Source: an uncultured bacterium (GTDB lineage Bacteria > Bipolaricaulota > Bipolaricaulia > UBA7950 > UBA9294). Taken from it: a stretch of DNA of 64,000 bases. Positions 11,838 through 45,315 of the stretch are shown in pieces. Position 1 is the first letter of the stretch. Every line of letters starts with the position of its first letter. The translations under genes and the position numbers were made by a program. A model generated the notes under the pieces. It was not told the origin of the DNA. It did no database searches and saw only the letters and a program-made list of their open reading frames with translations. Location: positions 160,814 to 224,813 of the forward strand of contig CAIOGO010000014.1 of NCBI GenBank assembly GCA_903857865.1. The letters run 5' to 3'.

Positions 11838-11851
11838 ATTCCCTCCTCGGC

Positions 11852-12994: not shown

Positions 12995-14400
12995 CGTTCC
13001 TCCTCGTCGATCAGGAGCCCGGGGTTCAGGATTCCGTTCGGATCCAGCATGCGCTTCATCGATTGGAGGAGTCCGTACGCCGTTCCCAGCTTGGGCATGA
13101 TGTGAGGCGAGATGCCGGCGCCCAGCCCACCGGGACTCATCCGCCCTTCGGTGAACATGCGCTCCGCGACTTCGCTCCGAAGCTGCATCCCGTACGCCCA
13201 CGCGTCGGGCTGGCGCTCGTCGTAGAGCGTGTCGATCCACAGGTATGCCCCGTTGCGCGAGAAGTAGGCGTCGACGCCCTTCACGCGAATCCCGTGCGTC
13301 TCGAACTCGCGCTCGCGCTCCGCCTTCATCGTCCGGAAGAGCGCCACGGCGTCGGCGAGCCCGCGCGAGGAGACGAACCCGGCCACCTCGGGGCAGAAGA
13401 AGGGTCGATCACTGTAGTAAGGACCCGGAGCCGTATTGCGCAACCACGAGTACATGTGCTCTTGCCAGTAGTGGCGAGTCCCCTCGGCAGGACGCGGCCG
13501 CCCGCGGTGGGACTCGCAGATCGCCTCCGCCTCGCGGACACGTGCGTCGGCGGCTACCGCCCGATCGCGCACGACAACGTGCAGGAAGGCGTCGCCCTCC
13601 TCGCCCGTGGGCTTCGGCCCCCCGAACAGTCCGACGAGGAACGTCGCCGCACCCCGACCTTGGATGCCCGTCGCGGCCTCGACCGCGTCGCGATACTCGT
13701 CGAACGCGTAGAACCGGAAGAGCTCGCACTCAGGAATCCGCTGAATGCGATACACCACGCGCGTGATGATCCCAAGGATGCCGTAGGAGCCGATGAACGG
13801 TCCGGCCAGATCGGCGCCGTTCGCATTGCGTTCGATCGGCTCCGATGCCGGGTTGGCCCACGATCCGGTTCGCACCACGTCGCCGGTCGGCAGGACAACC
13901 TCGAGGGCGAGAACGTGGTCGCCCGTCATCCCGTACTCCGTGGCGCCGTGAGGTGTGGCATTGACCGCCACGGTTCCCCCGATCGTGCACGAGAACAGTC
14001 CTCCGCCACCGGGCACGCCAAGCTCCCATCCGTCGCGACGCAGATCGGCGTCGATTCCGTGCCAGATCGCGCCGGCCTGAGCCACCACGAGGCGGGCGGC
14101 CGTGTCGATCCGCTCGACGCGGTTCATGCGCGTCGTCTCGAGCAGGATCACGCCGTCCTTCACTCCGCTCCCGAGGAACGTCGTCGCCCGCCCTCGCGTG
14201 TACAGCGGGTGCCGGTGGTCGTTCGCCCAGCGGACGATGGCCGACACCTCCTCCGTCGTCGCCGGGCGCACCACGACGCTCGGAATGCCGGCCTTGTCCG
14301 GCCCGCAATCCCGCGAGTAGCAGAGGCGGTCCACCAATCGGTCGGACACGTGCTCGGGTCCGACGATGGCGGCCAGCGCAGTAGCCACGTTCTCACGCAT
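12991..14400 (-). CDS. FAD-linked oxidase, GlcD-like
   Basis: The 469-residue protein has a PCMH-type FAD domain: PLYTRGRATTFLGSGVKDG near residue 65 and GGGGLFSCTIGGTVAVNA-type stretch near 130, both phosphate-binding segments. The C-terminal region follows the GlcD/lactate dehydrogenase pattern and ends GILNPGLLID, where the family typically has 'NPGK'. It likely oxidises a 2-hydroxyacid (glycolate, lactate, or a sugar-derived acid) and passes electrons to the GlcF-like protein encoded by the next gene. The start ATG at 14400 overlaps the upstream gene by 8 bases, with GAGGGTGG upstream; a GTG three codons earlier is possible. Confidence 0.9.
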   Translation of the reverse strand: MRENVATALAAIVGPEHVSDRLVDRLCYSRDCGPDKAGIPSVVVRPATTEEVSAIVRWANDHRHPLYTRGRATTFLGSGVKDGVILLETTRMNRVERIDTAARLVVAQAGAIWHGIDADLRRDGWELGVPGGGGLFSCTIGGTVAVNATPHGATEYGMTGDHVLALEVVLPTGDVVRTGSWANPASEPIERNANGADLAGPFIGSYGILGIITRVVYRIQRIPECELFRFYAFDEYRDAVEAATGIQGRGAATFLVGLFGGPKPTGEEGDAFLHVVVRDRAVAADARVREAEAICESHRGRPRPAEGTRHYWQEHMYSWLRNTAPGPYYSDRPFFCPEVAGFVSSRGLADAVALFRTMKAEREREFETHGIRVKGVDAYFSRNGAYLWIDTLYDERQPDAWAYGMQLRSEVAERMFTEGRMSPGGLGAGISPHIMPKLGTAYGLLQSMKRMLDPNGILNPGLLIDEEER

Positions 14401-15724
14401 ACCGTTCACCCACCCTCTTCGCTTCGGCGAGCACGGCGCGCTCGTCGATCGTCACCATCATTCGGTCCTTCATCACCACGCGGCCATTGATCACCACGGT
14501 TTCCACGTCGCCGGCACGGGCGCAATACACCAGCGCGGGCACGATCTCGTCCGTCAGCCGGAAGAGGTGTGCACCGCCCAGATCGATCAGCACGACGTCG
14601 GCCAGCCGCCCTTCGTCGATCGTCCCCGAGTCGAGACGACACGCCTTCGCTCCACCTTCGGTCGCGAAGCGGAAGACGTCGCGCGCGCCGAGGACGGTCG
14701 GGTCCTGGGCGGCCACCTTCTGCAGCATGGCCGCGCAGCGCATCTCTTCGAACGGATCCAGGAGATCGTTGGATGCCGCGCCGTCCGTGCCAAGGGCGAT
14801 GGCCGCTCCGGCGCGCCGCAGAGCCCCGATGGGCGCGATGCCGCTCCCGAGCTTCATGTTGCTCTTCGGGTTGTAGATCACGGCCACACCCCGCCGGGCC
14901 GCAAGCTCAATCTCCCCTTCCGTCAGGTGCACGCCGTGCGCGGCCGTGATCGGGCTCGCGAGGAATCCGATCGACTCGAGGTAGTCAAGCGGCGTCCTGC
15001 CCGTCAGCGACACCGATTGCTCCACTTCCCACGCCGTCTCCGACACATGCGTCTGGATCCCCAGGTCATGCTCGTCGGCACGCTCGCGGATCCACCGCAG
15101 GAGACCCTCGCTGCACGTGAACGGCGCCGAGGGGCCGAGGAACACGGTGACCAGAGGACTTTCCTTCGGCACCTGGTGCCACGTCTCGATCAGACGAACG
15201 GTGTCATCCTTCGTCTCGTTAAGCGAGACCATGACATCCTCGGGCACCCACTGGTCGACCAGGGTCATCGCCGCCACGCCGCGGATGCCGACCTCGAGCC
15301 ACGCCGCGATGACGCCGTCCAGGTTCATGTCCATGTCGACGAACGTCGTGATCCCGCTCCGCACCATCTCGATCGTCGCCAGCATCGACCACAGGCGACC
15401 GACCTCCTGCCGGCCGTGATGCCACGCGTCGTCCAGGACGCGCCGCACGAAGGGGAAGGTCACGGCGTCGCACCAATCGACAAGTGAGAGGTCGTCCCGC
15501 CGACCCTTGAGCATGGATTGATAGAGGTGCGTGTGGGCGTTCACGAATCCCGGCACGAGCGCACGCCCCTGCCCATCGAGCACGGTGGTCCCCGGCGCCA
15601 ACCGGCGGGCATCGATCGAACCGATTCGAGCGATCCGAGCCCCATCGATCAAGACGTCGACGTCGCGCTCGACGCGATCCGCGTCCCGCACGAGATACGA
15701 CACCCCACGAACGAGAATCATCAT
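14393..15724 (-). CDS. Amidohydrolase, MtaD/SAH-deaminase-like
   Basis: This 443-residue protein has the metal-dependent deaminase pattern: GFVNAHTHLYQSML near residue 65, QTHVSETAWEVEQ near 215, AAHGVHLTEGEI, NPKSNMKLGSGIAP, and LGTDGAASNDLLDPFEEMR near 310, where the aspartate is a metal ligand. The pattern is closest to the MTA/S-adenosylhomocysteine (adenosine-type) deaminases and chlorohydrolases, which remove exocyclic amino groups from nucleosides or bases. It overlaps the PreA-like gene by 4 bases (ATGA) and the GlcD-like gene by 8. Substrate is uncertain, but a nucleoside or purine base suits the operon. Confidence 0.85.
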   Translation of the reverse strand: MMILVRGVSYLVRDADRVERDVDVLIDGARIARIGSIDARRLAPGTTVLDGQGRALVPGFVNAHTHLYQSMLKGRRDDLSLVDWCDAVTFPFVRRVLDDAWHHGRQEVGRLWSMLATIEMVRSGITTFVDMDMNLDGVIAAWLEVGIRGVAAMTLVDQWVPEDVMVSLNETKDDTVRLIETWHQVPKESPLVTVFLGPSAPFTCSEGLLRWIRERADEHDLGIQTHVSETAWEVEQSVSLTGRTPLDYLESIGFLASPITAAHGVHLTEGEIELAARRGVAVIYNPKSNMKLGSGIAPIGALRRAGAAIALGTDGAASNDLLDPFEEMRCAAMLQKVAAQDPTVLGARDVFRFATEGGAKACRLDSGTIDEGRLADVVLIDLGGAHLFRLTDEIVPALVYCARAGDVETVVINGRVVMKDRMMVTIDERAVLAEAKRVGERYA

Positions 15725-16773
15725 CCTCTCCCTTCCCAGACGAGCGCACCGGCGGGGCAGACAGAGACGCACAGGCCGCACTCGCGGCACGCCTCGCCGA
15801 CGTCGGCAGGACTCCGCCGCGCCTGGTACGGACAGACGCGAACGCAAGCCTCACAATGGATGCAAGCCACCTCATCGAATCCCATTCGGACTCCTCGAGC
15901 TTCCTCCCATCGCGCGGCGCCGACGGCGTCCTCGATCGACGTGAGGCCGAACTCGTCCAAGCGATCGCTGAGATCGCCGCGCAGTCGGCGGAAGAGGTCG
16001 AGCCCGTGGACGAGCGCTCCGCTGCAGATCCCCACAGCACACGCTCCCGCGAGCAGCATTTCGACCGCCGTGTCGGCGTCCTCGACGCCACCCGTTCCGA
16101 TGACAGGGACCGCCACGGCCTGGCGCACGGCGGCCACTGCATGGAGAGCGATCGGCAGAATGGCCGGCCCGGACAGCCACCCAGCCGTCGCGCCGAGGAG
16201 GGGGCGGCGGGTCCGCGGGTCGATGCGAAGCGCGGGTCCGACCGAGTCGATGACCGTGAGAGCGCTCGTTCCTCTCTCGACGCACGCGCGCGCCGTGCCC
16301 ACGAGGTCACGACCGTTCGCGCTCAGCTTGGCAAACACCGGGATCCGAACGCGGCGCACGGCCGCATCGACCAGGCCGGGCAGCGTCGCCTCGTCGTACG
16401 AAACGACTTCCAGCGCGTCCGCGCCCGCCTCCTCGAGCGCCGCGGCAAGCGCCTCGACGTCGGCCGGCTCGAGCCCGACGCTCGCAATCACCGGCACACC
16501 CGCATCCTTCGCGAGCGGGATCTCCCGCTTGATCCACTGGGCCGAATCGAGGTCCGACCAGCGCTCGGCGTTGAGGACTCCGCCTCCGACACGGACGAGG
16601 TGCGGCACCGGTTGAGTCGCCGCACGACGGCTGATCGTCTTCGTGACGACCGCAGAGGCGCCGGCGCAGTACGCGCGAACGATGGCCTCCCCATTCCAGG
16701 ACAGCGGCCCCGACGCGAGAACCAGCGGGTGGTCGAGTTCGAGTCCACCCACGGCGGTGCGAAGGTCAGCCAC
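15721..16773 (-). CDS. Dihydroorotate dehydrogenase-like flavoprotein with C-terminal ferredoxin domain (PreA-like)
   Basis: The 350-residue product has an N-terminal DHOD-type FMN barrel (PLVLASGPLSWNG near residue 17, TKTISRRAATQPVPHLVR near 45, VPVIGTGGVEDADTA near 235) and ends with two [4Fe-4S] motifs, CIHCEACVRVCPY and CRECGLCVSVCPAGAL. This matches PreA, the pyrimidine-reducing subunit of NAD-dependent dihydropyrimidine dehydrogenase, in layout though it is shorter. No PreT-like NAD subunit is present, so the electron donor may be ferredoxin. The GTG start follows GGAGAGGAG and overlaps the previous gene by 8 bases. Both flanking genes are amidohydrolases, consistent with reduction and hydrolysis of a nitrogen ring. 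Confidence 0.85.
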   Translation of the reverse strand: MADLRTAVGGLELDHPLVLASGPLSWNGEAIVRAYCAGASAVVTKTISRRAATQPVPHLVRVGGGVLNAERWSDLDSAQWIKREIPLAKDAGVPVIASVGLEPADVEALAAALEEAGADALEVVSYDEATLPGLVDAAVRRVRIPVFAKLSANGRDLVGTARACVERGTSALTVIDSVGPALRIDPRTRRPLLGATAGWLSGPAILPIALHAVAAVRQAVAVPVIGTGGVEDADTAVEMLLAGACAVGICSGALVHGLDLFRRLRGDLSDRLDEFGLTSIEDAVGAARWEEARGVRMGFDEVACIHCEACVRVCPYQARRSPADVGEACRECGLCVSVCPAGALVWEGRG

Positions 16774-18103
16774 GGCTTTCTCCTCTCCAGAGCCGTTGGG
16801 CCTCGCGGCGCGCGCCCCCCCGCACCTCGACCTCGTCCATCGTCTGGACAACCCCGTCCCTCATCACATCCCGCCCCGCCACGATGGACAACCTGACGTC
16901 GCCGCGACCGCGGAAGAGGACGAGCTGATCCAGGACGTTGCCTCGCGTGAGTGGGGTGTCGGTGGCAGCGTCGATGCCGATCACGTCGGCCGCTCGCCCC
17001 GACTCGAGCACGCCAACCTCGGGCCAGCCGACGGATGTCGCGCCCCACGCCGTCGCCATCGCGAAGACGGTGCGTGCGGGCATGACCGCGGCATCCGCGC
17101 GTGCACCCTTGTGGAGGAGAAACGCGCCGCGCATGACTTCGAAGGGATCGTTGATGTACCCGTCCGTCCCCAGCCCGGGCGAGAGACCGCGGTCGATCAT
17201 GCGCGGCACGGGGGCGATCCCTCCACCGACTTCGCAGTTGGAGAGTGGCATGTGGGCCATCCGGACGCGCCGCTCGGCCAGCCGCTCGATCTCTTCATCT
17301 GTCAGCGCAACGCCCTGCGAGGCGAGCACGGCTTCGTCCCACAACCCCAAGCGGTCGTACCAGAAGACAGGACGCTCGCCATGGCGGCGCAGGCACTCCT
17401 CAGGCTCGTAGGTGCTCTCCGAGAGATGGAGGTGCAGACCGCAGCCGGCTCGGGTGGCACTCTCCTTCGCCGCGAGGACGAAGCTCTCCGAACAAGTAAA
17501 ACTCGTGTGCAAGCACTGCATGCCGCGAATGCGGCCGTCACTGCGCCGCGCTCGAGCGAACCGCTCGTTCTCGTCCAGCGCCCTCCGTCCAACCTCCGTA
17601 CCGTGGCGCTCCGACGCTTCGAGGCAGAGCACGGCGCGCACGCCGGCACGCTCGACCACAGCGGCCTCCAGATCGAGGATGCCGGCCTCGGAGAACGGCG
17701 CCTCGAGCACGTCACAGAACGTCGTGAACCCCGAGCGGATCATGTCGACGCACGCAAGCGCGGTCGCCGCCCCGATCATGGCCCCGTCGAGACGGTCTTC
17801 GACCCGCGGCCACCAGAAGTCGGCGAGAAAGCGGTCGAAGCCCCTCGGCGGTTCCCCGACGAGCGGGATCCCGTGAGCAAGGCGGCCGTACGCGTGCTCG
17901 TGCGCGTTCACAAATCCTGGGCAAAGAACGAGGTCCCCCGCATCCGTGACCTCGGCGCCTCCCGCACGGGAGAGCAGATCCTCGTTGGGGCCAAGCGCGA
18001 CGAGGACTCCGTCCTCGATCAGGATGCCCCAATTCTCTTCCAACGCGGCGCCAGCGCCCGCGAGAACCGCTCCACCGAGCACGATGCGCCTAGCCACCGC
18101 CAT
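16766..18103 (-). CDS. Amidohydrolase, chlorohydrolase/guanine-deaminase-like
   Basis: This is a second 445-residue deaminase-type amidohydrolase. Metal-site motifs are GFVNAHEHAYGRL near residue 60 (HEH instead of the usual HTH spacing residue), HLHLSESTYEPEE near 215, MPLSNCEVGGG, and LGTDGYINDPFEVMR near 310. It differs clearly from its neighbour at 14393-15724, so it is not a recent duplicate. Its role could be deamination of a guanine-, cytosine- or triazine-like ring. ATG at 18103 overlaps the preceding AOR gene by 14 bases. Confidence 0.83.
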   Translation of the reverse strand: MAVARRIVLGGAVLAGAGAALEENWGILIEDGVLVALGPNEDLLSRAGGAEVTDAGDLVLCPGFVNAHEHAYGRLAHGIPLVGEPPRGFDRFLADFWWPRVEDRLDGAMIGAATALACVDMIRSGFTTFCDVLEAPFSEAGILDLEAAVVERAGVRAVLCLEASERHGTEVGRRALDENERFARARRSDGRIRGMQCLHTSFTCSESFVLAAKESATRAGCGLHLHLSESTYEPEECLRRHGERPVFWYDRLGLWDEAVLASQGVALTDEEIERLAERRVRMAHMPLSNCEVGGGIAPVPRMIDRGLSPGLGTDGYINDPFEVMRGAFLLHKGARADAAVMPARTVFAMATAWGATSVGWPEVGVLESGRAADVIGIDAATDTPLTRGNVLDQLVLFRGRGDVRLSIVAGRDVMRDGVVQTMDEVEVRGGARREAQRLWRGESRG

Positions 18104-20003
18104 ACCCCCACAGCGCCCGGCCGGCATCTCCGAGGCCCAATCGATCGAGCGTGGCCGCCGTCGGCCACCCCGTCACCAAGTCCCAACCGCGCAGGGCGTA
18201 GTACTCGTCGAGCATCTTCGGCGCGTGCGCAACCTGACCCCGCGCGCCGCGCGCCGGCGATGGCTCGGCCGTCATGCGCTCGGGCAGACGGTCGTCGGCC
18301 CGCCCGATGCCAAGGCGCGCGTTATAGGCTCGCGCCAGGTTGACGATGCGCTCGCCGATCGCCCTCAACTCCTCCTCGTCCAACGCCCACCCGGTGGCCA
18401 GCCGGAGGCCGGCGGCGATCTCAGGCCAGTAGATCTCGGCCATCACGAACGTCCCGCCTGACTTGCACACGCCGACCGAGTCGACGACCGCGCCGAAGTC
18501 CTCGCCATCCTTGACCAGAAATGGCTTGTGCCGCGTTGCGTGAGGATCCGCCATCTCGGGAAGGAACTGCGGGCCGTAGCGCCGCAAGACCTCCGCAGCG
18601 CTCCCCGTTTCATCGACCGTCGGGAACGCCTTCAAGTGGTCGGCGCCGCGATTCGACGTCATGTGCGCCAGGCCCATGGACTGCTGCGCGCGCCCGTCTT
18701 GCGCCGGGATCTCCATCCCTTTGACTTCCATCGCGTAGGGCCGCGCAGCGGCGCCGAACGCCGCGGCCGCCCGCCGCACGCCTTCGGCCAGCACGTCGCC
18801 GACGCCCTCGCGGGTCGCAATGCGCTCCACGAGAGAGAGGATCGTCTCGACGTTGCCCCACGTCGCGTCCAGGCCGTCGAGATCGCCGCGCGTCAGGATG
18901 CCTCGCTGGACGAGCTCCATCGCGAAACCAATCGCGCGGCCCGTCGAGATCGTGTCCATCCCCAAGCGGTCGCAGCGATCGCTCGCGAACAGGATCGCTT
19001 CCAGATCGGCGTTCCCGAGGCCCGCGCCGAACGCGTTCAGCGTTTCGTACTCCACGCTCGACGTCTCGAGGCCGGCGAAGCGTCCCGCGTCGATTCGGTA
19101 CACCTTGTCGCACCGCACGGGGCACGCGAAGCACCCGGTGTCTCGAACGAAGTACCGCTCGCGCAGGGTCTCGCCGCTGATCTCCTCGGCCTTCGCAAAC
19201 TCCCCATCCTGGAAATTGCGCGTCGGGAACCGACCGATCTCGTTCACGACGCGCACGAGACCCGGGGTCCCGAAGCGGGAGCACGCCGGGAACATGGCGT
19301 TGGCGCGAAGTCGCGCGTGCAGGCTCTGAGCCAGTTCGATGAATCCGGCGCGGTCCACGAAAGGCACGCGCTTCGAGCCCGAGACGGCGATCGCCTTGAG
19401 CCGCTTCGCGCCCATCACGGCGCCGAGCCCGCAGCGACCGAAGCTGCGATTCGGCGTCGCCTGGATGGAGGCAAAACGAACGCCGCGCTCCCCGGCCGGC
19501 CCGATTGACGCCACCTGAAGGGCGGGGGCAGCATACCGGTCACGGAGAGCGGCCTCCGTCTGAATCGTGTCGAGTCCCCAGACGTCGCCCGCGTCGTCGA
19601 TCGCGGCCACGCCGTCGGCGATCCGCAGCACGACGGGCGCATCGGACGAGCCACGCACGACCACAGCGTCATACCCAGAGAACTTGAGACCCGGACCGAA
19701 GGTTCCACCGGCGTTCGAGTCTCCGTAGATGCCCGTGAGCGGCGACCGGGCGATGGCCTCGGTGCGCCCCGAGCACGGCCACGCCGTTCCCGTCAGCGGC
19801 CCGGTCGCCACGATGAGGACGGCGTCCGGCGACAACGGATCCACGTCGGGTCCCACTTCATCCCACAGGACCTTCGCGCCGAACCCGCTCCCGCCGAGGT
19901 AGGCGCGGGCGAGCGTAGGGTCGAGAGGCCGCGCCTCGAGGCGTCTTGAGGAGAGGTCGACGTGGAGCACCCGGCCGACGTAGCCACCGCGCGCACGCGT
20001 CAC
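18090..20003 (-). CDS. Aldehyde:ferredoxin oxidoreductase family protein (AOR 3)
   Basis: The 637-residue protein has the AOR N-terminal pterin segments (YLGGSGFGAKVLWDE, GIYGDSNAGGTFGPGLK), a CFACPVRC cluster motif near residue 287 and the distal cysteine in SVGVCKSGGTF near residue 510. This shows an intact W/Mo-pterin enzyme with one [4Fe-4S] cluster. The start GTG forms GTGA with the stop of the preceding AOR gene and has GGGAGGACGG upstream. Tandem AOR genes of about 640 residues, each distinct from AOR 1, suggest that two related enzymes or a heteromer act on the operon's aldehyde or related intermediates. Confidence 0.92.
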   Translation of the reverse strand: MTRARGGYVGRVLHVDLSSRRLEARPLDPTLARAYLGGSGFGAKVLWDEVGPDVDPLSPDAVLIVATGPLTGTAWPCSGRTEAIARSPLTGIYGDSNAGGTFGPGLKFSGYDAVVVRGSSDAPVVLRIADGVAAIDDAGDVWGLDTIQTEAALRDRYAAPALQVASIGPAGERGVRFASIQATPNRSFGRCGLGAVMGAKRLKAIAVSGSKRVPFVDRAGFIELAQSLHARLRANAMFPACSRFGTPGLVRVVNEIGRFPTRNFQDGEFAKAEEISGETLRERYFVRDTGCFACPVRCDKVYRIDAGRFAGLETSSVEYETLNAFGAGLGNADLEAILFASDRCDRLGMDTISTGRAIGFAMELVQRGILTRGDLDGLDATWGNVETILSLVERIATREGVGDVLAEGVRRAAAAFGAAARPYAMEVKGMEIPAQDGRAQQSMGLAHMTSNRGADHLKAFPTVDETGSAAEVLRRYGPQFLPEMADPHATRHKPFLVKDGEDFGAVVDSVGVCKSGGTFVMAEIYWPEIAAGLRLATGWALDEEELRAIGERIVNLARAYNARLGIGRADDRLPERMTAEPSPARGARGQVAHAPKMLDEYYALRGWDLVTGWPTAATLDRLGLGDAGRALWGYGGG

Positions 20004-21856
20004 GCCGTCCTCCCGTCCGAGAGCCCGAGCCGCACCAGGGTCGTCGGCGTCGGCAACCCGTCCTCGCCCCACCCGCGGAGCCGGTAGTACTCGGCCAGCA
20101 TGTCCGGAAGCGAGTCGATCCGTCGCTCGTCGTGGGCCTCGCCGTGCGCGACGGGCAGCGGCTCCTGTGTGAATCGCTCCGGCAACCGGTCATGAGTGGC
20201 ATCGACGCCAAATCGAGCGTTGAGCAACCGCTCGAGGTTGACGATGCGCTCTCCGACCTCCAGGAGCCCATCGGCGTCCAACGCGAGTCCCGCCGCGGTG
20301 ACGGCCTCAGCCAAGTGCGCGGGGTCGAGCGCGTAGACCTCCGTCGTGGTGAATTTGCAGACACCGAGCGCGTCGGAGACCGCACAGTAGTCCTCACCGA
20401 ACCGCACCAGCGCAGGCTTCGTCGCCTCGTCGGCGGGGTCGAGAACGCGCGGGTAGACGGTGGGCAGCAGGCGCCGAGCCGCCGCGTCCAGCCCGGCGAC
20501 GTCGATCGTCGGCAGCGCGTACAGGTGGTCGGCGCCGCGGTTCGACGTCGCATGTCCCAGTCCGAACGCCTTGGCCACCCGCGGCTCCTGCCCAGGAATC
20601 TCGAGCCCCTTGACGTGAAGCGCGTAGGGAATCGCCGCAGACCCGATCTCCTTTGCCGCGGCCCGGACGCCGCGGCAGAGGAGTTCGCCGATCCCTTCGC
20701 GACGCGCGATCCTCTCGACCAGCGCGACAATCGTGTCTCCCCGCCCCCACGAGAGATCGACAGATTCGTCATCCAACAACCCGCGTTCGTGGCACTCCAT
20801 CGCGAACGCGATCATGGCCCCGACGGAGATCGTGTCCAGCCCGAGTTCGTTGCACAGCGCGTTCGCGTGAAGAATGGCCTCAAGGTCGCCGCACCAGCAG
20901 TTGGCGCCCAGCGCGTCCAAGGTCTCGTACTCCGGCCCGGCGCTGCGTGAACGGTGCACGCCAGAGTTCACCTCGGAGATTCGGCCGCAGCGGATCGGGC
21001 AGCCGGGGCAGCCCTTGGTCTCAACCCGGTACAACTCGAGGGCGTCTGCATCGATCGCGTCGCCGAACGGGACTTGCCCGAGTCGATGGTTCATCGCCGG
21101 CAGATCTCCGCTCGCGTTCTTGATCCCGACGAGGAACGGCGTCCCCCAGCGCAACAGGTCGCGCACTCCGGGCGTCGCGAGAATCCGCTGCGTCGCGGCC
21201 CGAGATCGCGCCAGGAAACCTGACGGAAACCGCGGCCAGCGACCGCCGTCGACCACGATGGCCTTCACGTTCTTGGCGCCCAGCACCGCGCCCCCGCCGC
21301 ACCGCGCCGCGGCGCGCCCGCCGTCGACCATGACCGCCGCCAGCGGCACGCCGCGCTCACCCGCGGGCCCAATGCACGCAACCGCGGCCGCCGTCCCCTT
21401 GCGCAACGCTTCCGTCGCCTCAGGCACTCGGGACCCCCAGAGACGCCCCGCCGCCTCGAGGCGGATGCCGGACTCGTCGACTCTGATCACGCTCGGTTCT
21501 GGGGCGCACCCCACCAAAACGAGGGCGAGGATCCCGTGCGCCGTCAGGCGCGGCCCGAAGGATCCCCCGGCGTTGGCGTATCCGTAGATGCCTGTGAGCG
21601 GCGATCGAAATGCCATGTGAACGCGCGACGACGCGGGCCACGGACTGCCGTTGAGCAGGCCAGCACCCATGACGAACGGAGCCTCCGGATCGAGCGCATC
21701 GTGCTGCCAGAAGGCCCGTTCTTCGAGGAGGCGCACAGCCACGCCACGCCCGCCGAGGTACGCCCGGCGCGATGCCTCGTCTTGCCTCTCTTCGCGCAGC
21801 CTCCCGTCTGTCAAATCGACGGTGATCACGCGCTGGGGAAAGGGACTACCGCTCAT
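20000..21856 (-). CDS. Aldehyde:ferredoxin oxidoreductase family protein (AOR 2)
   Basis: The 618-residue product shares the family layout: YLGGRGVAVRLLEER and GIYGYANAGGSFGPRL pterin-binding segments, CPGCPIRC cluster motif near residue 289, and DALGVCKFTTTEV near residue 500 for the last cysteine. It is the first of two adjacent AOR genes and follows the Mch-like gene with an 11-base overlap. ATG at 21856 is preceded by GGAGGG. The association with Ftr and Mch homologues is unusual; the enzyme may act on a formyl- or aldehyde-level intermediate (inference). Confidence 0.92.
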   Translation of the reverse strand: MSGSPFPQRVITVDLTDGRLREERQDEASRRAYLGGRGVAVRLLEERAFWQHDALDPEAPFVMGAGLLNGSPWPASSRVHMAFRSPLTGIYGYANAGGSFGPRLTAHGILALVLVGCAPEPSVIRVDESGIRLEAAGRLWGSRVPEATEALRKGTAAAVACIGPAGERGVPLAAVMVDGGRAAARCGGGAVLGAKNVKAIVVDGGRWPRFPSGFLARSRAATQRILATPGVRDLLRWGTPFLVGIKNASGDLPAMNHRLGQVPFGDAIDADALELYRVETKGCPGCPIRCGRISEVNSGVHRSRSAGPEYETLDALGANCWCGDLEAILHANALCNELGLDTISVGAMIAFAMECHERGLLDDESVDLSWGRGDTIVALVERIARREGIGELLCRGVRAAAKEIGSAAIPYALHVKGLEIPGQEPRVAKAFGLGHATSNRGADHLYALPTIDVAGLDAAARRLLPTVYPRVLDPADEATKPALVRFGEDYCAVSDALGVCKFTTTEVYALDPAHLAEAVTAAGLALDADGLLEVGERIVNLERLLNARFGVDATHDRLPERFTQEPLPVAHGEAHDERRIDSLPDMLAEYYRLRGWGEDGLPTPTTLVRLGLSDGRTA

Positions 21857-22847
21857 GGCGCCCTCCGTCAGCTCGCCCGAGAGCGGAAGCCAGGAGCTCA
21901 ACGTCGACGGCACCCGCCGACGCCACTCGGCCGGTCGTACGGTCCACGAGCGTGATGCAGGCGACCTTGTTCAGATCGGATAACCCGGGGATGGCCTCGA
22001 ACACGCCGCCGGCCTCTGCCAAGAGCTCCGAGAAGAGGCGCCCATAGGTGGGCGACGAGCGGAAGACGAGAGCCTCGGCAGTAGCTCTCAGGTCCCAACT
22101 CGGCGCAGCCTCGACGATCATCGTCACCCGCCCGGCGTAGTGGATCATGTCATCCTGCGTCACCACGGGAATGCCTCGACCGCCACAAGGGGCGAGCGGC
22201 ACGGCGCCGAGAATGCTGACGACGCAGCGCGGATCCAGCCCGATGGACTGGTCGAGCGTGAACAAGACGCACTCGTTCAGCCGTCCGGCGAGCTGAGCCA
22301 CGCCAGCCAAGCTGTTCGACGGGACCACGACGAGCGTCAGCTCCGCGGGCCGAAGTCCGGCCCGCCGCGCGATCGCCTCGACGACGTCCGCGTTCGGCAG
22401 GCGCGTCGCCTCAACGACGGCCACGCCCCAGGAGCAGACGCCGTCGACAAGGTCCGACGGCCGATCTAGTTGGCCGTCCATGCAGGCGCGCACGGGTCCG
22501 GAGACGCGAATCGCCGCGTCCACTTCGTCAAGAGCGAAGGAAACTTGCAGTCCATGGATAGAGAGGAAGGGTCGCCACGAGCCGCCGACCAACTCGGGAA
22601 GCGGGATGCCTAGGACGTCCGTCATGCCCAGCGTCGCCTTCATCATGCCCCCATGCGCAAGCTCCGCGACGCGTCGTCCGGCCTCCCACGACCCCCGCGT
22701 GGCGACGCCGCAGTCCAGGATGAGCGCCCCGGCGTGGCCTGGCCGGACGTCGACCTCGAGAACCGGCGCGTCTTCAACCAGCGACCGAACGAGCGCCGCA
22801 GTCCGGGCACCAGCCCACTCCTGTTCCGCGCTGCTCCAGCCCGCCAT
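21846..22847 (-). CDS. mch: Methenyltetrahydromethanopterin cyclohydrolase-like protein (Mch family)
   Basis: The 333-residue length is close to the ~320 residues of Mch. Family landmarks are the CGVATRGSWEAGRRVAELAHGG segment near residue 47, the GRGIPVVTQDDMIHYAGRV region near residue 223 and the C-terminal SSPTYGRLFSELL, IPGLSDLNKVACITLVDRTTG and ASAGAVDVELLASALG segments, which follow the archaeal and methylotroph pattern closely (SS-YG-F, V-N-TG, G-V-SFG). Mch interconverts methenyl- and N5-formyl-tetrahydromethanopterin. Several positions are divergent (for example LSDLNK where the family has a proline-rich loop), so a paralogue with another pterin or ring substrate is possible. It follows Ftr by 12 bases. 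Confidence 0.8.
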   Translation of the reverse strand: MAGWSSAEQEWAGARTAALVRSLVEDAPVLEVDVRPGHAGALILDCGVATRGSWEAGRRVAELAHGGMMKATLGMTDVLGIPLPELVGGSWRPFLSIHGLQVSFALDEVDAAIRVSGPVRACMDGQLDRPSDLVDGVCSWGVAVVEATRLPNADVVEAIARRAGLRPAELTLVVVPSNSLAGVAQLAGRLNECVLFTLDQSIGLDPRCVVSILGAVPLAPCGGRGIPVVTQDDMIHYAGRVTMIVEAAPSWDLRATAEALVFRSSPTYGRLFSELLAEAGGVFEAIPGLSDLNKVACITLVDRTTGRVASAGAVDVELLASALGRADGGRHER

Positions 22848-22859
22848 CTCGCCTCCCGC

Positions 22860-23774
22860 CTAGCGGTCCTCGGTCGGAACGACGTCGCGCAGGGCCAGCT
22901 TGCGGCCGCCCCATGCTCCCTCGAACGACGGGGCCGTGATCCCGACGATGCCCGACGTTCGAGCGAAGGCGTCGATGGCTACGCGCAGGCCGATTCGCAT
23001 CGCGTCGACCGACGTCGCGACGAGGGGGAACTCGATGACGGAATCTACGTCCGCCGGGACCTTCGTCGCCACCCGCCCTCGAAGCGATGGGCAGAAGGGC
23101 TCGTTGATCGTCACACCCTCGCCCTTGTAGCGGGTCCCGCCCACCTTGGCGCCGCTGATGCCGCCGACCGGGTAGTTGAACACCGCCACGCCCGGCGCGT
23201 CCCGCACGACGCACGCCGCCGCTTCCATTGCGCCCATCAGGCAAGCCGCCTCGTTTTGCCCGAACACCTCGAGGACGCCGTCGGTTCCCGCCACGACGTG
23301 AACGCGTCGCTCGATGAACTGATTGCCGGTCATGATCGGGATCCGAACCACCTCGCGCTCGCCTACACGGTCCAGCGCCTCGTACCCGTCACCCCATCGC
23401 GACACCCGCGCAGCCAGGTCGACGACCCACTCCACCGGCCCGTTCGCACCGCCGTCGAAGAGCGAACACGTCGGAAGGTGAGGAAAGATGTACAGACGGT
23501 CGAGCAGCGCCTTCTTGAACGTCTCCAGACCGACCGCCGTCGGGGCATTGAGTTGGAGCGCGACGCCGCTTCGCCCATCCGGGGTTGCGGACGACGCGAC
23601 GAACCCATCGATGCACCCCTGGATCGGCGCCGCGGTGATGATCCCGAACCCGCACAGGTAGCTCGCCTCGGCCATCGCGACGGCTTCGGTCGCCGCGGTG
23701 AGAATGAGGCGGGCGGTGTACAAGTCGGTGCACTCGCAAAACGTGTCCTCAATCTCGATCCCTCGGTATCTCAT
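22860..23774 (-). CDS. ftr: Formylmethanofuran:tetrahydromethanopterin formyltransferase-like protein (Ftr)
   Basis: The 304-residue protein aligns by eye over its whole length with Ftr (about 297 residues): GIEIEDTFCECTDLYTARLI at the N-terminus, ATPDGRSGVALQL near residue 62, RIPIMTGNQFIERR near 147, GQNEAACLMGAMEAA near 178, PVGGISGAKVGG-type stretch near 210, then INEPFCPSLRGRVATKVP and the final beta segment GITAPSFEGAWGGRKLAL. Ftr moves a formyl group between methanofuran and tetrahydromethanopterin. Formylmethanofuran dehydrogenase subunits, methylene-H4MPT dehydrogenase and Fae are not in the window. ATG at 23774 follows GAGAGGAG and overlaps the NAD-kinase-like gene by 4 bases. Confidence 0.88.
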   Translation of the reverse strand: MRYRGIEIEDTFCECTDLYTARLILTAATEAVAMAEASYLCGFGIITAAPIQGCIDGFVASSATPDGRSGVALQLNAPTAVGLETFKKALLDRLYIFPHLPTCSLFDGGANGPVEWVVDLAARVSRWGDGYEALDRVGEREVVRIPIMTGNQFIERRVHVVAGTDGVLEVFGQNEAACLMGAMEAAACVVRDAPGVAVFNYPVGGISGAKVGGTRYKGEGVTINEPFCPSLRGRVATKVPADVDSVIEFPLVATSVDAMRIGLRVAIDAFARTSGIVGITAPSFEGAWGGRKLALRDVVPTEDR

Positions 23775-24811
23775 CCGTTCTCCTCTCGCTCCATCTCTCC
23801 ACGAGGCGAAGCCGCCCGTCGGATCGATACGACGGCACCCTCGACCGTGCTTAGCGACACTATCGCCGCGGGAGACGCCGCGCAACGCGGTGTCCCGTCA
23901 ACCACGAGCGCGGATCCCAGCCGGAAGCCGCCCATCTCCACGACGTCACCGGGCGCCAGTCCCAGATGGAAGATCCGCAGAGGCTCGGCGGCCTCGAGAT
24001 CGTTCCGACCGAGCCGGGTCCGAATCATGAGCGCACTCGCCGCCGCCACGACTCCCAGGCAGCCAACGTACGGCCCCCAACAGAGAAGCCCGCTCACGGC
24101 TTTGCCCCGGCAGGCGTCCGTGTCATTGAGCGGCGATGCGACGATCTGTCCCCCCTCGAGCTCAGCGCCCGCAAGTAGCCGTCTCCCGTTCTTCGCAATC
24201 CACGTCGCCTGTCCGCACGCTGAGATTGGATCAGCCGTTCGGTCCTCGCCGCGAAGCCCCGCCGCCGCATCCAGATCTACGCGCCGCCCGCAGCGCGTGC
24301 CGAAGAACGTGTTCGCAACCGTCGCATCGTGGAACGCCAGCCCCACCTTCACCCCGTCGAAGCGCACCTCGAGGGCGTGCACCGGGACATCGGCCCACGA
24401 CGAGGCAAGGAACCCATCGAGTTCCACGGCCGTGGTTCCGACGAGAGGCCCCACATTGGACGACCCGACGCCGACGCCGAGCAGGCGAACCACTGATCCA
24501 GCCGAGGAGAGAACGCTGCCGATGTCGCCCAGCGTGCCGTCGCCCCCAACGCCGATCACCGTGTCCACCCCCGCCTCAAGGAGTTCTCTCGTCAGGCCGC
24601 AGGCGTCGCCCACCGGGCCGCGGACCTTCCGACAATCCAGGCCGCACGCGTCCGCCGCAGCGGCCTCGAACGTGTCGGCAACGAGGACCACGTCCCGCTC
24701 CCGGAGCGCAGGCAGCAGGCGAGCGAGGATGCCCTGCAGCGCGTCGGGCCCGGCGCCCGCGCAGGGGTTGGCGATGACGCCGATTCGGCCAAGATGCTGG
24801 CAGGCACTCAC
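23771..24811 (-). CDS. NAD kinase-like (ATP-NAD kinase superfamily) protein
   Basis: The 346-residue protein starts with a Rossmann-like strand and ANPCAGAGPD loop at residues 11-20, then the diagnostic GVGGDGTLGDIG near residue 104, the ATP-NAD/diacylglycerol kinase phosphate-binding motif. Beyond about residue 200 it lacks the usual NAD kinase GGP(I)xP-type segments that I would expect and instead has its own long beta-rich half. It is longer than typical NAD kinases (about 290). It lies between the ABC permease and Ftr with 4-base overlaps on both sides (GTGA and ATGA), so it is an integral part of the operon. It may phosphorylate an unusual cofactor or substrate rather than NAD. Confidence 0.7.
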   Translation of the reverse strand: MSACQHLGRIGVIANPCAGAGPDALQGILARLLPALRERDVVLVADTFEAAAADACGLDCRKVRGPVGDACGLTRELLEAGVDTVIGVGGDGTLGDIGSVLSSAGSVVRLLGVGVGSSNVGPLVGTTAVELDGFLASSWADVPVHALEVRFDGVKVGLAFHDATVANTFFGTRCGRRVDLDAAAGLRGEDRTADPISACGQATWIAKNGRRLLAGAELEGGQIVASPLNDTDACRGKAVSGLLCWGPYVGCLGVVAAASALMIRTRLGRNDLEAAEPLRIFHLGLAPGDVVEMGGFRLGSALVVDGTPRCAASPAAIVSLSTVEGAVVSIRRAASPRGEMEREENG

Positions 24812-25635
24812 TTGATCGCTCCTCCCGTCAGCCCGGAAACCAAGTACCGCTGCCCGAGCAGAAACAGCACGAACACGGGAATCGTGACCAGGAGGGCGGC
24901 AGCCGACAGCGGGCCCCATTGCACAACTCCGCCCGACCCGAGGAAACGGGCGAGATACACGGGCAGCGTCCAGGTCTCGTTCGTCCGCATGATGACGAGG
25001 GCAAAGAAGAACTCGTTCCAGGAGAGAAGCAGCGAGAACGTCGCCACCGCCAGGAGACCCGGCACGGAGAGCGGGAGGATGATGCTCACGAGCGCCCGTA
25101 GGCGCGTGCAGCCGTCAATCCTCGCCGCCTCCTCCAAGTCGATGGGGATCTTGTCGAAGTACCCCTTGAGGAGCCAAATCGAAAACGGAAGAGCAAAGCT
25201 CGTGTGCATGATCACGAGCCCCGGCAGCGTGTTGATCAGTCCGTACACCTTCAAGACCGTGAACAGCCCAAGCACCATGATGATTCCGGGAAACGCCTGC
25301 GTCGCCAGGAGCCACATCGAGAACGCCGTCCGCCCACGGAACTTGAACCGCGACAGGGCGTAGCCGGCCGGCGCGGTTACGATGATGGCGAGAATCACGG
25401 TCGAGAACGCGACGATGGCCGAGTTCCGAAGGTTGATCAGGAACGTGCCCCCTGTAATGACCGTGCGGAAATTGTCCCAGGTCACTCCGTGCGGAATTCC
25501 CATCGGAGACTCGAAGATCTGGGTCTGAGTCTTGAGGGAGTTGAACACGAGGAGGAGGAGGGGGAACACGAGGAAGGCGATCATCACGAGGACGGCGACG
25601 TGGAGGAGGACTTGCTTGAACGGATGCATCCTCAT
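24808..25635 (-). CDS. Sugar-type ABC transporter permease (MalG-like)
   Basis: This 275-residue membrane protein has about six hydrophobic helices, the first at residues 12-32, and the ATPase-contact loop LEEAARIDGCTRLRALVSII at about residue 178, in the EAA---G pattern of CUT1 importers. It ends with the typical C-terminal sequence QRYLVSGLTGGAIK. With the MalF-like partner and the solute-binding protein it makes a carbohydrate- or nucleoside-type importer. No ATP-binding subunit is encoded nearby, so a shared MalK/MsmX-type ATPase is implied. Start ATG forms ATGA with the preceding stop. Confidence 0.92.
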   Translation of the reverse strand: MRMHPFKQVLLHVAVLVMIAFLVFPLLLLVFNSLKTQTQIFESPMGIPHGVTWDNFRTVITGGTFLINLRNSAIVAFSTVILAIIVTAPAGYALSRFKFRGRTAFSMWLLATQAFPGIIMVLGLFTVLKVYGLINTLPGLVIMHTSFALPFSIWLLKGYFDKIPIDLEEAARIDGCTRLRALVSIILPLSVPGLLAVATFSLLLSWNEFFFALVIMRTNETWTLPVYLARFLGSGGVVQWGPLSAAALLVTIPVFVLFLLGQRYLVSGLTGGAIK

Positions 25636-26522
25636 TGCAGCACCTCACGGATGTACAGGACGACGACGCTCAGCAAGATGAGCAGGATGATGATGCCGAT
25701 CGCCGCGCCGTATCCGGCCTGCTGCGAGCCGTACGCCCAGGTGTAGGCGTAGAGGGGGAGCGTCATCGACGCGTTGGCCGGTCCCCCTCTGGTCAAGACG
25801 TAGACGATGTCAAACGAGTTGAACGTCCAGATCGACTCCAAAGTGAGAATGATGAGGATGACCTTCTTGATGCTCGGAACGACAATCCGCAATTGCGTCT
25901 GCAAGTAGCTCGCGCCGTCGATGGCCGCCGCCTCGAGAATGTCTCCTTCGAGCGACTGCAGCCCAGCGAGGATCATGATCGTGACGAACGGAATTCCCAT
26001 CCAGATGTTGGCAATGATGCACGTCCACAGGGCGAGGTGTGTATCGATGAGCCACGCTGGGAGGTGGATCACACCAAGCCCCGAGAGGGCGGTGTTGAGT
26101 GGCCCGCCGGAGAGAAAGATGTACCGCCAGATGAGTGACACGACGACGCCGGGCAGAGCCCAGGGAATAAGCGTGACGGTCCGGAACGCACGACGGAAGC
26201 GAAGATGCCGCGAGTTGAGCATCGTAGCCAAGATGTAGGAAACGAAGAACATCGCGGCGACGCTGGTCACGGTCCAGACGAGGCTGTTGAGGAGTGCGCG
26301 GATGAAGACGGGGTCGCGGAAGAGAAGAACGAAGTTCTGCAGACCGGAGTAGACGTTCTTCCCCGTCAGCGCACGGAAGGAGTAGAAGACGCGGGAGATG
26401 CCCTGAGCCAAAGGATACAGGCTCACGAAGCACAGGACGGCGAGGGCGGGTGCCACGAACGGCAGGGCCCGCTTCTCCTCGAGGAAGGGTCGCCGCGCGT
26501 TCGCGGACCTACTGGTCTTCAT
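25632..26522 (-). CDS. Sugar-type ABC transporter permease (MalF-like)
   Basis: The 296-residue protein has six predicted membrane helices, the first at about residues 21-41 (FVAPALAVLCFVSLYPLAQG), and the EAA loop LEAAAIDGASYLQTQLRIVV near residue 203. These mark the MalF/UgpA-type half of a CUT1 importer. It overlaps the dehydrogenase gene by 14 bases and its partner permease by 4. The transporter presumably brings in the compound degraded by the operon. Confidence 0.92.
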   Translation of the reverse strand: MKTSRSANARRPFLEEKRALPFVAPALAVLCFVSLYPLAQGISRVFYSFRALTGKNVYSGLQNFVLLFRDPVFIRALLNSLVWTVTSVAAMFFVSYILATMLNSRHLRFRRAFRTVTLIPWALPGVVVSLIWRYIFLSGGPLNTALSGLGVIHLPAWLIDTHLALWTCIIANIWMGIPFVTIMILAGLQSLEGDILEAAAIDGASYLQTQLRIVVPSIKKVILIILTLESIWTFNSFDIVYVLTRGGPANASMTLPLYAYTWAYGSQQAGYGAAIGIIILLILLSVVVLYIREVLQ

Positions 26523-27609: not shown

Positions 27610-27660
27610 CGAGGGAGGGGGCGCAAGGCCCCCTCCCTCGGCCAAAGGCGCAACGCGCCT
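27610..27660. repeat. Two adjacent stem-loops inside the operon
   Basis: A 13-base-pair stem (27610-27640, cgagggagggggc and complement) is followed by a 6-base-pair stem (27646-27660, aggcgc and gcgcct) whose end includes the stop codon of the upstream gene within CTAG. No T-run follows, so it is probably not a classical terminator; it may stabilise or attenuate the operon transcript between the binding-protein part and the enzyme part. The arrangement resembles the twin-hairpin elements found further right. Confidence 0.6.
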
Positions 27661-28180
27661 AGTACTCCACGCGAATGCCGATGACGTACCACGACCACTG
27701 CTCGGGGGCATACAACTGCTCCACCCCAGCGATCTGGTAGGGGAATACCAGCTTCAGCGGTCCGCCGGAGCTGGCCTTGATAGCCTTGTCGTTGGCCGAG
27801 TACGCGATCAGGATCGGGTAGTCAAACGCATCCTTGATCTGGATGACGAACTCCTTGGCGTCCGACGCGATGATGACGACGCGCTTCGCGTCGGCCGGAA
27901 TGCCGACGTACTTGAGCAGATCGGACAACAGCACGCCCCCGTACAGCTTCTCGCCCATCCACGGATCGGTTACCGTGTAGGCGAGGTAGGGCAGCGCCTT
28001 CACCATGTCCAGGTCGAACCTGAACACGCCGGCGCCCTTCATGATGTCGATGTCATTGTGGAGGGCGATCGTCCCCGACATCGTCAGAGCAACCGGGCCT
28101 ATCGGCGTGGGGCCTGTCCCCAGCACCGCGACACCCATCAACGCAACGATCAACAACCCGAGACACAACGTTCGCTTCAC
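27659..28180 (-). CDS. Exported small molybdopterin-binding-like domain protein
   Basis: GTG at 28180, after AAGGAGG, gives a 173-residue protein with an N-terminal signal segment (residues 4-25). The mature part resembles the oxidoreductase molybdopterin-binding (SUOX/YedY-like) fold in its short, cofactor-doubtful form: VTDPWMGEKLYGGVLLSDLL, then FVIQIKDAFDYPILIAY, and GGPLKLVFPYQ near the C-terminus. The cysteine that would coordinate Mo in true sulfite-oxidase-type enzymes is absent. It lies between the binding protein and the dehydrogenase genes. Role unknown; a binding or accessory function is as likely as catalysis. Confidence 0.65.
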   Translation of the reverse strand: MKRTLCLGLLIVALMGVAVLGTGPTPIGPVALTMSGTIALHNDIDIMKGAGVFRFDLDMVKALPYLAYTVTDPWMGEKLYGGVLLSDLLKYVGIPADAKRVVIIASDAKEFVIQIKDAFDYPILIAYSANDKAIKASSGGPLKLVFPYQIAGVEQLYAPEQWSWYVIGIRVEY

Positions 28181-28268
28181 CTTGGTCCTCCTTCCCCCTC
28201 GTTCGTTTCTGAGACATCCGCTTCCCTCCTGCCGTTCCGCGCGACGAACCACCTCCTTCGTCTCTCTC

Positions 28269-29543
28269 CTATTGAAGTCCCATGCGGCGAAGGTACTCGT
28301 TCCCATCATCCATCGCCGCCTGCAGCGCCTTGTCCAGGTTCTTCGATCCAAGGACGACCCGCTCAATCTGCGGGATAAATGACTGCCATTCCCAGCCGAA
28401 GAAACCGAACATCTTCGGCTTCACATCCTCCGCAAACGGAAGCCATTGATAGAGGACATTCCACTGATCCTGTGTCGTCTGAAACTCCGGGCGGGCGAGC
28501 GCTGACTGGCGAATGGGGAAGAGCCAGTCGGCCTTCGCGATGCGCACCTGGTTCTCCGAGTTGGTGAAGTAAAGCAGAAACTGCGCCGCCTCGTCCTTGT
28601 GAGCCGAGCCGGAGTAGATGAAGACGCCCTGCGGGTCGGACTCCGTAACGTTCCGCACGGGCCCCTTGACCTCAAGCATTCCCCAGTCGAGTTGGTTCCG
28701 AGTGAGGTTGATGATCCAGCTCCGGACCCAGCACCCGAAAGTGAACATTGCGTACTTGCCCGTCTTGAAGCCCTGGAGCAGGCTCGTGAAGTCATAGCTC
28801 AGGACGTCCTGCGGCATGACGTGGTCCACCGTAATCAGGTTGGTGTAATACTCGATCGCCTGCCGTGCCGCCTGGTCGATCTCGACGTGCCACGTGCCGT
28901 CGTCATGTTTGACGAGGACCTGGCCGCCGTTTTGCGCAACAAGGCACCACCAGAGCCGCTGTTCGAGCGGCGCCAGGAGCCCCCACGTCGTCGTCTGACC
29001 GCTCGCGTCCGTCTTCGTCAGTCGGAGCGCGTAGTCCCGCAGCTCGTCCCACGTGACCATCCCGTCGGCCGGCGGAGTGATCTCCGCAGCGGCGAACATC
29101 GCCTTGTTGTAGAAGACGACGAGCGTTTCCTGCAGAAAGGGGACGCCGTAGATGCTTCCCTGATCGTCGCTGACGCCGTCCCAGCTCGCCTGGGACGTAT
29201 CGGCCAGCGTCGCTGCATCGAGGTAGCGGTTGAGCGGCTCCGCGTACCCCTGGACACCATACTCGTAGCACATGACAGTGTCCTGGTGGATCACATCCGG
29301 TCCCTGTCCGGCCTGGAAGCTCGTGAGGAGGTAGTCGTTGATGTTCTCCCACGCCACCGAGACGATCTCCACCTGGATGTCCGGCCGCGCCGCGTTCCAC
29401 TCCGCGACGATGTCCTCAACCTCGGTCACCGTGTCGTCTTGCCAAGCCGGCGTCAGGAACTGCAGCGTCACCGCTCCGGCGCACACCGCGGTCGTGGCCG
29501 CCAACAGCGCCGCCAGGCCGCCCACCCACATTGCTCGCCTCAT
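28269..29543 (-). CDS. ABC transporter solute-binding protein (sugar family)
   Basis: The 424-residue precursor has a type I signal peptide ending about AVCAGA (residues 17-22) without a lipobox, which implies a periplasm. The mature protein has the family-1 extracellular binding protein pattern: TLQFLTPAWQDD start, WNAARPDIQVEIV, GQGPDVIHQDTV, FYNKAMFAAA and a tryptophan-rich C-terminal half ending YLRRMGLQ. The gene follows the phosphoesterase gene by 24 bases, with GGGAGG before the ATG. It would deliver substrate to the MalFG-like permeases; ligands of the family include oligosaccharides, glycerol-3-phosphate compounds and nucleosides. Confidence 0.92.
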   Translation of the reverse strand: MRRAMWVGGLAALLAATTAVCAGAVTLQFLTPAWQDDTVTEVEDIVAEWNAARPDIQVEIVSVAWENINDYLLTSFQAGQGPDVIHQDTVMCYEYGVQGYAEPLNRYLDAATLADTSQASWDGVSDDQGSIYGVPFLQETLVVFYNKAMFAAAEITPPADGMVTWDELRDYALRLTKTDASGQTTTWGLLAPLEQRLWWCLVAQNGGQVLVKHDDGTWHVEIDQAARQAIEYYTNLITVDHVMPQDVLSYDFTSLLQGFKTGKYAMFTFGCWVRSWIINLTRNQLDWGMLEVKGPVRNVTESDPQGVFIYSGSAHKDEAAQFLLYFTNSENQVRIAKADWLFPIRQSALARPEFQTTQDQWNVLYQWLPFAEDVKPKMFGFFGWEWQSFIPQIERVVLGSKNLDKALQAAMDDGNEYLRRMGLQ

Positions 29544-29567
29544 TGCGCTACCTCCCATCCACATGGC

Positions 29568-34443: not shown

Positions 34444-34452
34444 GCTGACCCC

Positions 34453-36564: not shown

Positions 36565-36581
36565 CAACTCACCCTGCCCCA

Positions 36582-43511: not shown

Positions 43512-43700
43512 CCCTTGCCTCCAACGCCAAGCCTGGAGAACGCCCCGTGGAGCGTTCTCCCTAGCCGCGCCCGGCGCGCGGCCGTGGGCTGAACAACCTC
43601 GAACTGCGGGAGACTCATGCCCCACCTCCAATACCGCCCTGGAGAAGGAGAGCCATTCTCACTCCTTCTCCCTAGCTGTGCCGCTTGCGGCACAGCCGGC
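43475..43700. repeat. Tandem duplication of FAD-gene start with two twin-hairpin elements
   Basis: Two units of about 105 bases follow each other: each contains the gene-start codons (43485-43511; 43589-43616), the same leader, and a twin hairpin. Unit 1 hairpins are 43535-43560 (ggagaacgc) and 43564-43582 (gccgcgc); unit 2 are 43641-43671 (ggagaaggag) and 43675-43696 (gctgtgccgc). In both, the hairpins are separated by ccctag. Hairpin stems differ between units although the leader is conserved. Confidence 0.85.
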
Positions 43701-45170: not shown

Positions 45171-45238
45171 CGTGCACCGCCTTTCGTCGAACCGGCCTTC
45201 TCCAGCGCGGAGAGAACCTTTTCGGGCCGTGATCGGGT

Positions 45239-45300: not shown

Positions 45301-45315
45301 TGGCAGCTCTTCCGA

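Follow-up and report, generated by a model that had tools for sequence, protein, structure and literature searches.

A possible third, tetrahydromethanopterin-independent subfamily of Ftr and Mch in a putative riboside-degrading operon of Bipolaricaulota

Introduction

The formyltransferase Ftr/FhcD (TIGR03119) and the cyclohydrolase Mch (TIGR03120) are the closest described relatives of two adjacent genes in a 64,000-nucleotide stretch of DNA (the window; positions 160,814 to 224,813 of contig CAIOGO010000014.1, assembly GCA_903857865.1) from an uncultured bacterium of the phylum Bipolaricaulota. A sequence-only reading had proposed that the pair was recruited to a formyl/methenyl chemistry other than that of the tetrahydromethanopterin (H4MPT) pathway. 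The window proteins share with the described families a full-length fold and invariant catalytic positions, namely the catalytic Glu and other positions in Ftr and the equivalents of Q93, R183 and E186 in Mch. They differ in their low identity and sub-cut-off scores, in the separate clade and riboside-type operon in which Mch is found, and in belonging to genomes without FwdA/FhcA or beta-RFAP synthase. A genuine H4MPT locus, such as that on an Azospirillum plasmid, brings together fae, mch, methylene-H4MPT dehydrogenase, beta-RFAP synthase and Fhc genes, and nothing similar was seen here.

Other described systems resemble the surroundings of the pair. A plasmid cassette of Mycolicibacterium arabiense contains, as does the window operon, a LacI repressor, an ADP-ribosylglycohydrolase-family protein (ADPRGH), a solute-binding protein, two permeases and a ribokinase, but no Ftr/Mch, aldehyde:ferredoxin oxidoreductase (AOR) or amidohydrolases are annotated there; on a Rhizobium plasmid, ADPRGH is found together with a BMP-family ABC transporter. 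Clostridial purine fermentation, as in C. acidurici (PMC3519856), has in common with the window an anaerobic setting, deaminases or amidohydrolases, nearby xanthine-dehydrogenase-type genes and one-carbon flow via tetrahydrofolate (H4F) and FTHFS, yet the clostridia use a formimino-H4F route whereas the operon has Ftr/Mch instead. According to the paper on the C. acidurici genome, a gene for glycine formiminotransferase was not found and several anaerobic purine breakdown steps could not be given genes (PMC3519856). In the literature searched, the paper on the closest-looking purine pathway names no genes matching the operon, the Bipolaricaulota metabolism paper does not mention the enzymes of the Ftr/Mch operon, and we found neither a report of ADPRGH-nucleoside-ribokinase clusters nor one of an Ftr/Mch subfamily fixed in a catabolic operon outside H4MPT metabolism. 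Ftr and Mch are already known as folds and probably as chemistries.

Results

The window pair is full length and forms separate clades

The two genes are:

22860..23774, minus strand: Ftr homologue (formyltransferase fold, putative third subfamily); Pfam FTR and FTR_C, AlphaFold2 (AF2) fold, E248
21846..22847, minus strand: Mch homologue (cyclohydrolase fold, putative third subfamily); Pfam MCH, AF2 fold, Q101/R189/E192

The Ftr open reading frame (ORF) encodes 304 amino acids from an ATG start and is followed, 12 bases downstream, by the 333-amino-acid Mch ORF. The resemblance of both proteins to their families over their full length, noted from the sequence alone, is borne out by profiles and structure models. 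FTR (84 bits) and FTR_C (70 bits) together span residues 1-298 of the Ftr homologue, and MCH (162 bits) spans residues 15-321 of the Mch homologue. Matches to the NCBIfam equivalog models are also full length but reach only about 50-60% of the curated cut-offs (147.4 bits against 292.6 for TIGR03119; 140.8 against 228.8 for TIGR03120). The AF2 models (mean pLDDT 79.9 for Ftr and 89.0 for Mch) align best with solved 1m5s for Ftr (Z 28.2, rmsd 2.8, 270 residues; Z 25.6-28.2 across 1ftr, 1m5s, 1m5h and 6s6y) and with 4gvq for Mch (Z 37.8, rmsd 2.3, 302 residues; Z 35.7-37.8 across 1qlm, 4fio and 4gvq). Both are genuine, full-length homologues whose folds match those of solved Ftr and Mch, and the source genome (2.24 Mb assembly, 91% complete) yields no further FTR or MCH match.

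Identity to the references is 30-34% for Ftr and 25-31% for Mch. When the pair was compared with archaeal and methylotroph sequences, as the sequence-only reading had called for, the Ftr and Mch clades each split from the references with 100/100 support in unrooted trees (6 Ftr and 4 Mch references) in which the joining branches are long. We considered an archaeal or a methylotroph origin of the pair, and neither holds in so far as an unrooted tree with few references can tell: the clade lies outside both sampled groups.

The residues that we take from the structural literature to be catalytic, Glu245 of M. kandleri Ftr and Gln93, Arg183 and Glu186 of A. fulgidus Mch, are retained. Ftr E248 (M. 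kandleri E245) is invariant in 12/12 clade and 6/6 canonical sequences, and Mch Q101, R189 and E192 (A. fulgidus Q93, R183 and E186) are invariant in the new clade and in the canonical references; in the 4gvr chain, Q replaces E at the position of A. fulgidus E186. About 45 reference-invariant positions per protein differ in the new clade, many of them now clade-invariant as another residue; numerous glycines are the same in every sequence of the two groups. This is the pattern that would be expected if the chemistry were kept and the binding surface changed under purifying selection. The same large switch to other invariant residues could mean that the folds were kept and the formyl/methenyl chemistry lost in favor of another reaction on a base or folate-like ligand, as might the failure to find Mch in one Ftr-carrying genome (below). 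We regard such a loss as unlikely, since the catalytic Arg/Glu of Mch, the Glu of Ftr and the shared glycines are invariant in both groups, and the genes remain neighbors, which consecutive steps would predict.

H4MPT markers are missing from the genomes that carry Ftr

Ftr was found in 13 of 100 genomes. Beta-RFAP synthase, the marker of H4MPT biosynthesis, was detected in none of these 13 while control archaea were positive, and FwdA/FhcA (TIGR03121) was found above its curated cut-off in none. The H4F enzymes FTHFS and FolD are present in 12/13 and 11/13, respectively. Within the window, Fwd, Fae and methylene-H4MPT dehydrogenase were indeed absent, as had been claimed, from the genes scanned, to which the search for Fae and MtdB was confined. 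The alternative raised with the original proposal, that the genome encodes a full H4MPT pathway at another place, was checked through beta-RFAP synthase and FwdA/FhcA and rejected because both are missing across the 13 genomes; no second Ftr/Mch copy was found.

These metagenome-assembled genomes (MAGs) are 56-92% complete, which leaves some room for the pair to belong to a normal H4MPT one-carbon pathway with its remaining genes unassembled. This explanation is largely refuted and we consider it very improbable: two markers are missing 13 times out of 13, the scores are far under the equivalog cut-offs, and the operon context is unlike that of a real H4MPT locus. Contamination or mis-binning of the pair was likewise rejected, since the operon has orthologues in 13 genomes of this phylum. 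Relatives recovered by DNA scan are mostly labelled Bipolaricaulota or Acetothermia; the few labelled Atribacteria, Neomarinimicrobiota or uncultured bacterium correspond to genomes that the genome search assigns to the same phylum. A pattern scan of 84,980 species returned only Bipolaricaulota members, although both motifs are clade-specific and the scan therefore has a narrow reach.

The pair belongs to a conserved operon

Ftr and Mch lie within 20 genes on a single strand, from LacI (32954) to ribokinase (9562), that overlap or are separated by gaps of at most 97 bases; the larger overlaps stem from choosing the longest ORF. In addition to the pair, the operon and the gene beside it comprise:

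31956..32954, minus strand: LacI repressor; nearest curated models RbsR and CytR, then PurR, UriR and others, all below cut-off
31213..31959, minus strand: DeoC/LacD (DhnA-type) aldolase; profile matches
29568..31211, minus strand: calcineurin-like metallophosphoesterase; profile match
28269..29564, minus strand: ABC solute-binding protein; SBP_bac_1
27659..28366, minus strand: secreted-looking molybdopterin-binding (SUOX-fold) domain protein; PF00174, 41 bits
26509..27561, minus strand: Zn-dependent medium-chain alcohol/polyol dehydrogenase; profile matches
25632..26522, minus strand: sugar-type ABC permease 1; profile matches
24808..25635, minus strand: sugar-type ABC permease 2; profile match, conserved
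23771..24919, minus strand: ATP-NAD kinase/DAGK-like orphan kinase; Pfam DAGK_cat, 26 bits
20000..21913, minus strand: AOR1, AOR family; AFOR_N and AFOR_C, CPGCPIRC motif
18090..20072, minus strand: AOR2, AOR family; AFOR_N and AFOR_C, CFACPVRC motif
16766..18127, minus strand: AH2, SsnA/NECH-type amidohydrolase; model scores, HxH and HxxE present
15721..16851, minus strand: PreA/DHODH-like flavoprotein with 2x[4Fe-4S]; DHO_dh and Fer4
14393..15847, minus strand: AH1, nucleoside/8-oxoguanine-deaminase-type amidohydrolase; best solved relative MTA/SAH deaminase 4f0r, 217 bits
12991..14409, minus strand: GlcD-like FAD 2-hydroxyacid dehydrogenase; FAD_binding_4, glcD 127 bits, co-occurs with Ftr
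11852..13240, minus strand: GlcF/LdhH-like iron-sulfur CCG protein; CCG and Fer4
10458..11873, minus strand: ADPRGH, putative ribosidase; Pfam 160 bits
9562..10545, minus strand: ribokinase; TIGR02152, 303 bits, above the cut-off of 299.65
8192..9565, plus strand: hydantoinase/dihydropyrimidinase-like amidohydrolase beside the operon; TIGR02033, 386 bits against a cut-off of 393

The true start of the SUOX-fold protein is probably further in, with conservation starting at about residue 37 or later; it keeps its place between the gene for the solute-binding protein and those for the alcohol dehydrogenase and permeases, and may be an extracytoplasmic pterin- or ligand-binding accessory. A sequence search for a solved relative of the orphan kinase found none, and its DAGK/NAD-kinase similarity is weak. 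The PreA-like protein has eight clade-invariant Cys between positions 330 and 365.

The operon is kept in 13 Bipolaricaulota genomes in two main arrangements. One runs Ftr-Mch-AOR1-AOR2-AH2-PreA-AH1-GlcD-GlcF-ADPRGH-RbsK and the other Ftr-Mch-AH1-GlcD-GlcF-ADPRGH-RbsK, then AOR1-AOR2, then AH2-PreA-hydantoinase where the contig continues; across relatives the hydantoinase is a conserved neighbor or a member of the operon. Mch is present in 12 of the 13 Ftr genomes, and GlcD in 12 of the 13 and in two others whose cluster reaches the contig end. The kinase occurs in each of the 13 and in one other where it is cut at the contig end. Wherever kinase and Ftr are on one contig, they adjoin or stand one gene apart. 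Co-occurrence of Ftr with Mch, GlcD and the kinase gives hypergeometric p values from 1e-12 to 2e-15 over the 100 genomes, with shared ancestry ignored. Seeming losses in G006 and G011 are uninformative, as the cluster there hits contig ends. In the sole Ftr genome in which Mch was not found (G032), the hydantoinase is inserted between kinase and Ftr (locus L038, G032:C184), a variant hinting that a cyclic amidohydrolase might take the place of Mch. One relative (L034, 1-12437) carries, upstream of the Ftr cluster, a tandem second copy of the solute-binding protein, the SUOX-fold protein and the two permeases.

The amidohydrolases and AORs do not match formylmethanofuran dehydrogenase subunits

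The pair is indeed embedded with AORs and amidohydrolases, two of each following in the operon and a third AOR and the hydantoinase lying further along, but the suggested parallel with Fwd did not survive comparison. AOR1 and AOR2 have AFOR_N, AFOR_C and a CxxCxxxC motif and are thus AFOR-type enzymes; these and the Mo/W subunit Fwd/FmdB belong to different families, so the Mo/W likeness is only superficial. The top-scoring models for AH1 and AH2 are deaminases of the SAH/5'-deoxyadenosine/8-oxoguanine/SsnA type rather than FwdA.

A bacterial Fhc-like route in which AH1 stands in for FhcA, so that a pterin formyl passes via Mch and Ftr to a carrier amine and is hydrolyzed by AH1 to formate, would fit the position of AH1 directly after Mch in several genomes, and FhcA is likewise an amidohydrolase-superfamily protein. 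AH1 nevertheless holds the full deaminase metal and catalytic set HxH...HxxE...H...D and has deaminases as its nearest solved relatives; FwdA/FhcA is missing as described, and the operon showed no gene of the FhcB/FhcC type. We judge this route quite improbable.

Proposed role in riboside breakdown

The best reading of the operon is the uptake and breakdown of a presumed riboside, a nucleoside-like compound, given a LacI near RbsR/CytR, a ribokinase above its cut-off, the deaminase group of AH1, and the recurrence elsewhere of cassettes joining ADPRGH, ribokinase and ABC transporters. The hydantoinase, the PreA-like protein and the second amidohydrolase are consistent with degradation of a nitrogen heterocycle. 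ADPRGH would release ribose from the imported riboside for the ribokinase. The deaminase-type amidohydrolases, together with the hydantoinase, would remove groups from the base and open it, with redox steps carried out by ferredoxin or flavin oxidoreductases (the AORs, PreA and GlcD/GlcF). Since its Arg/Glu pair is retained, Mch is predicted to turn a cyclic methenyl (amidine) group into an N-formyl group and back, its ligand being either a folate or the imidazole-type ring of the base directly, and Ftr would shift the formyl between amine nitrogens. The one-carbon unit from the base would pass to H4F and, through FolD and FTHFS, yield formate and ATP. On this reading the chemistry of Mch and Ftr was co-opted to free a formyl unit or pass it on, with H4F as the probable end point; this agrees with the proposed recruitment, in that the pair lies outside an H4MPT pathway and in a conserved catabolic operon. 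Retained formyl/methenyl chemistry and H4F as the one-carbon sink are, like the substrate, what we infer from sequence. We put forward, as a tentative reading with a little under even chances, that the pair represents a third subfamily of Ftr and Mch, independent of H4MPT, within a LacI-controlled operon degrading an imported riboside.

Several points weigh against this proposal. Conversion of 5-formyl to 5,10-methenyl H4F is uphill at neutral pH and might have to be pulled by later steps. DraG-type glycohydrolases are best known for acting on alpha-linked ADP-ribose, so that a nucleosidase role for ADPRGH is an extrapolation. The substrates of the operon enzymes are all predicted at the family level, the steps of the AORs, GlcD/GlcF and the aldolase have no specific assigned intermediates, and the genome in which Mch was not found must be accommodated. 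Finally, the source genome also has an FTCD-domain protein; this formiminotransferase match is not linked to the operon and lies on G000:C4, with outer-membrane, FabA-domain and FtsW-family genes close by.

The operon might instead break down methanopterin scavenged from dead methanogens. A plausible enzyme can be named for every part of that molecule: the phosphoesterase for the phosphodiester, ADPRGH for the alpha-ribosyl bond, ribokinase for the ribose, GlcD/GlcF for 2-hydroxyglutarate, the alcohol dehydrogenase and aldolase for deoxyribitol, the amidohydrolases for the pterin, and Ftr/Mch for bound formyl or methenyl. The hosts are without the beta-RFAP synthase needed for making H4MPT, a secreted molybdopterin-type pterin-binding fold lies within the uptake part of the operon, and some relatives are recorded as coming from lake sediments. 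An unchanged H4MPT ligand, however, predicts a better-kept Mch pocket than one with changes at about 45 canonical-invariant positions; the assignments of GlcD/GlcF and of the phosphoesterase reach the family level only, and our literature search found no methanopterin degradation pathway. We consider it improbable. Under a broader idea, the Mch and Ftr folds act on a scavenged natural product itself and not as cofactor enzymes. They might serve anaerobic purine-riboside breakdown, as the cyclohydrolase that opens the ring and as the deformylase, or they might belong to what would be the first catabolic pathway for methanopterin, taken up from dead methanogens. We find this idea conceivable though doubtful.

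Neighboring genes

Upstream of the operon, positions 39546-47685 encode xanthine-dehydrogenase/Mo-hydroxylase subunits in two sets, of which one includes a subunit that fuses FAD and [2Fe-2S] parts; such genes were not seen upstream in relatives whose flanks were read. Between them and the operon (33346-39232) lie an indolepyruvate:ferredoxin oxidoreductase, an ADP-forming acyl-CoA synthetase and a HisC-like aminotransferase, all three of which are also upstream of the cluster in one relative (L031). The third AOR-family gene (4533-6650) is on the opposite strand, and in two same-genus genomes (L084, L085) stands beside a PKD-domain gene and the hydantoinase. Elsewhere in the window are a 940-amino-acid protein with a SIR2-like domain (PF13289; 906-3728), possibly an anti-phage defence gene, and a group II intron-type reverse transcriptase (48184-50043) with a sub-cut-off score of 69 bits.

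Discussion

Ftr and Mch are commonly taken as signatures of H4MPT one-carbon metabolism in metagenome annotation. The new clade shows that such annotation can mislead, because it keeps the catalytic residues in genomes that have neither beta-RFAP synthase nor FwdA/FhcA. The operon also suggests an anaerobic pathway not yet described, in a phylum about which little is known, and supplies concrete, assayable candidates for the enzymes that would release a one-carbon unit from a riboside.

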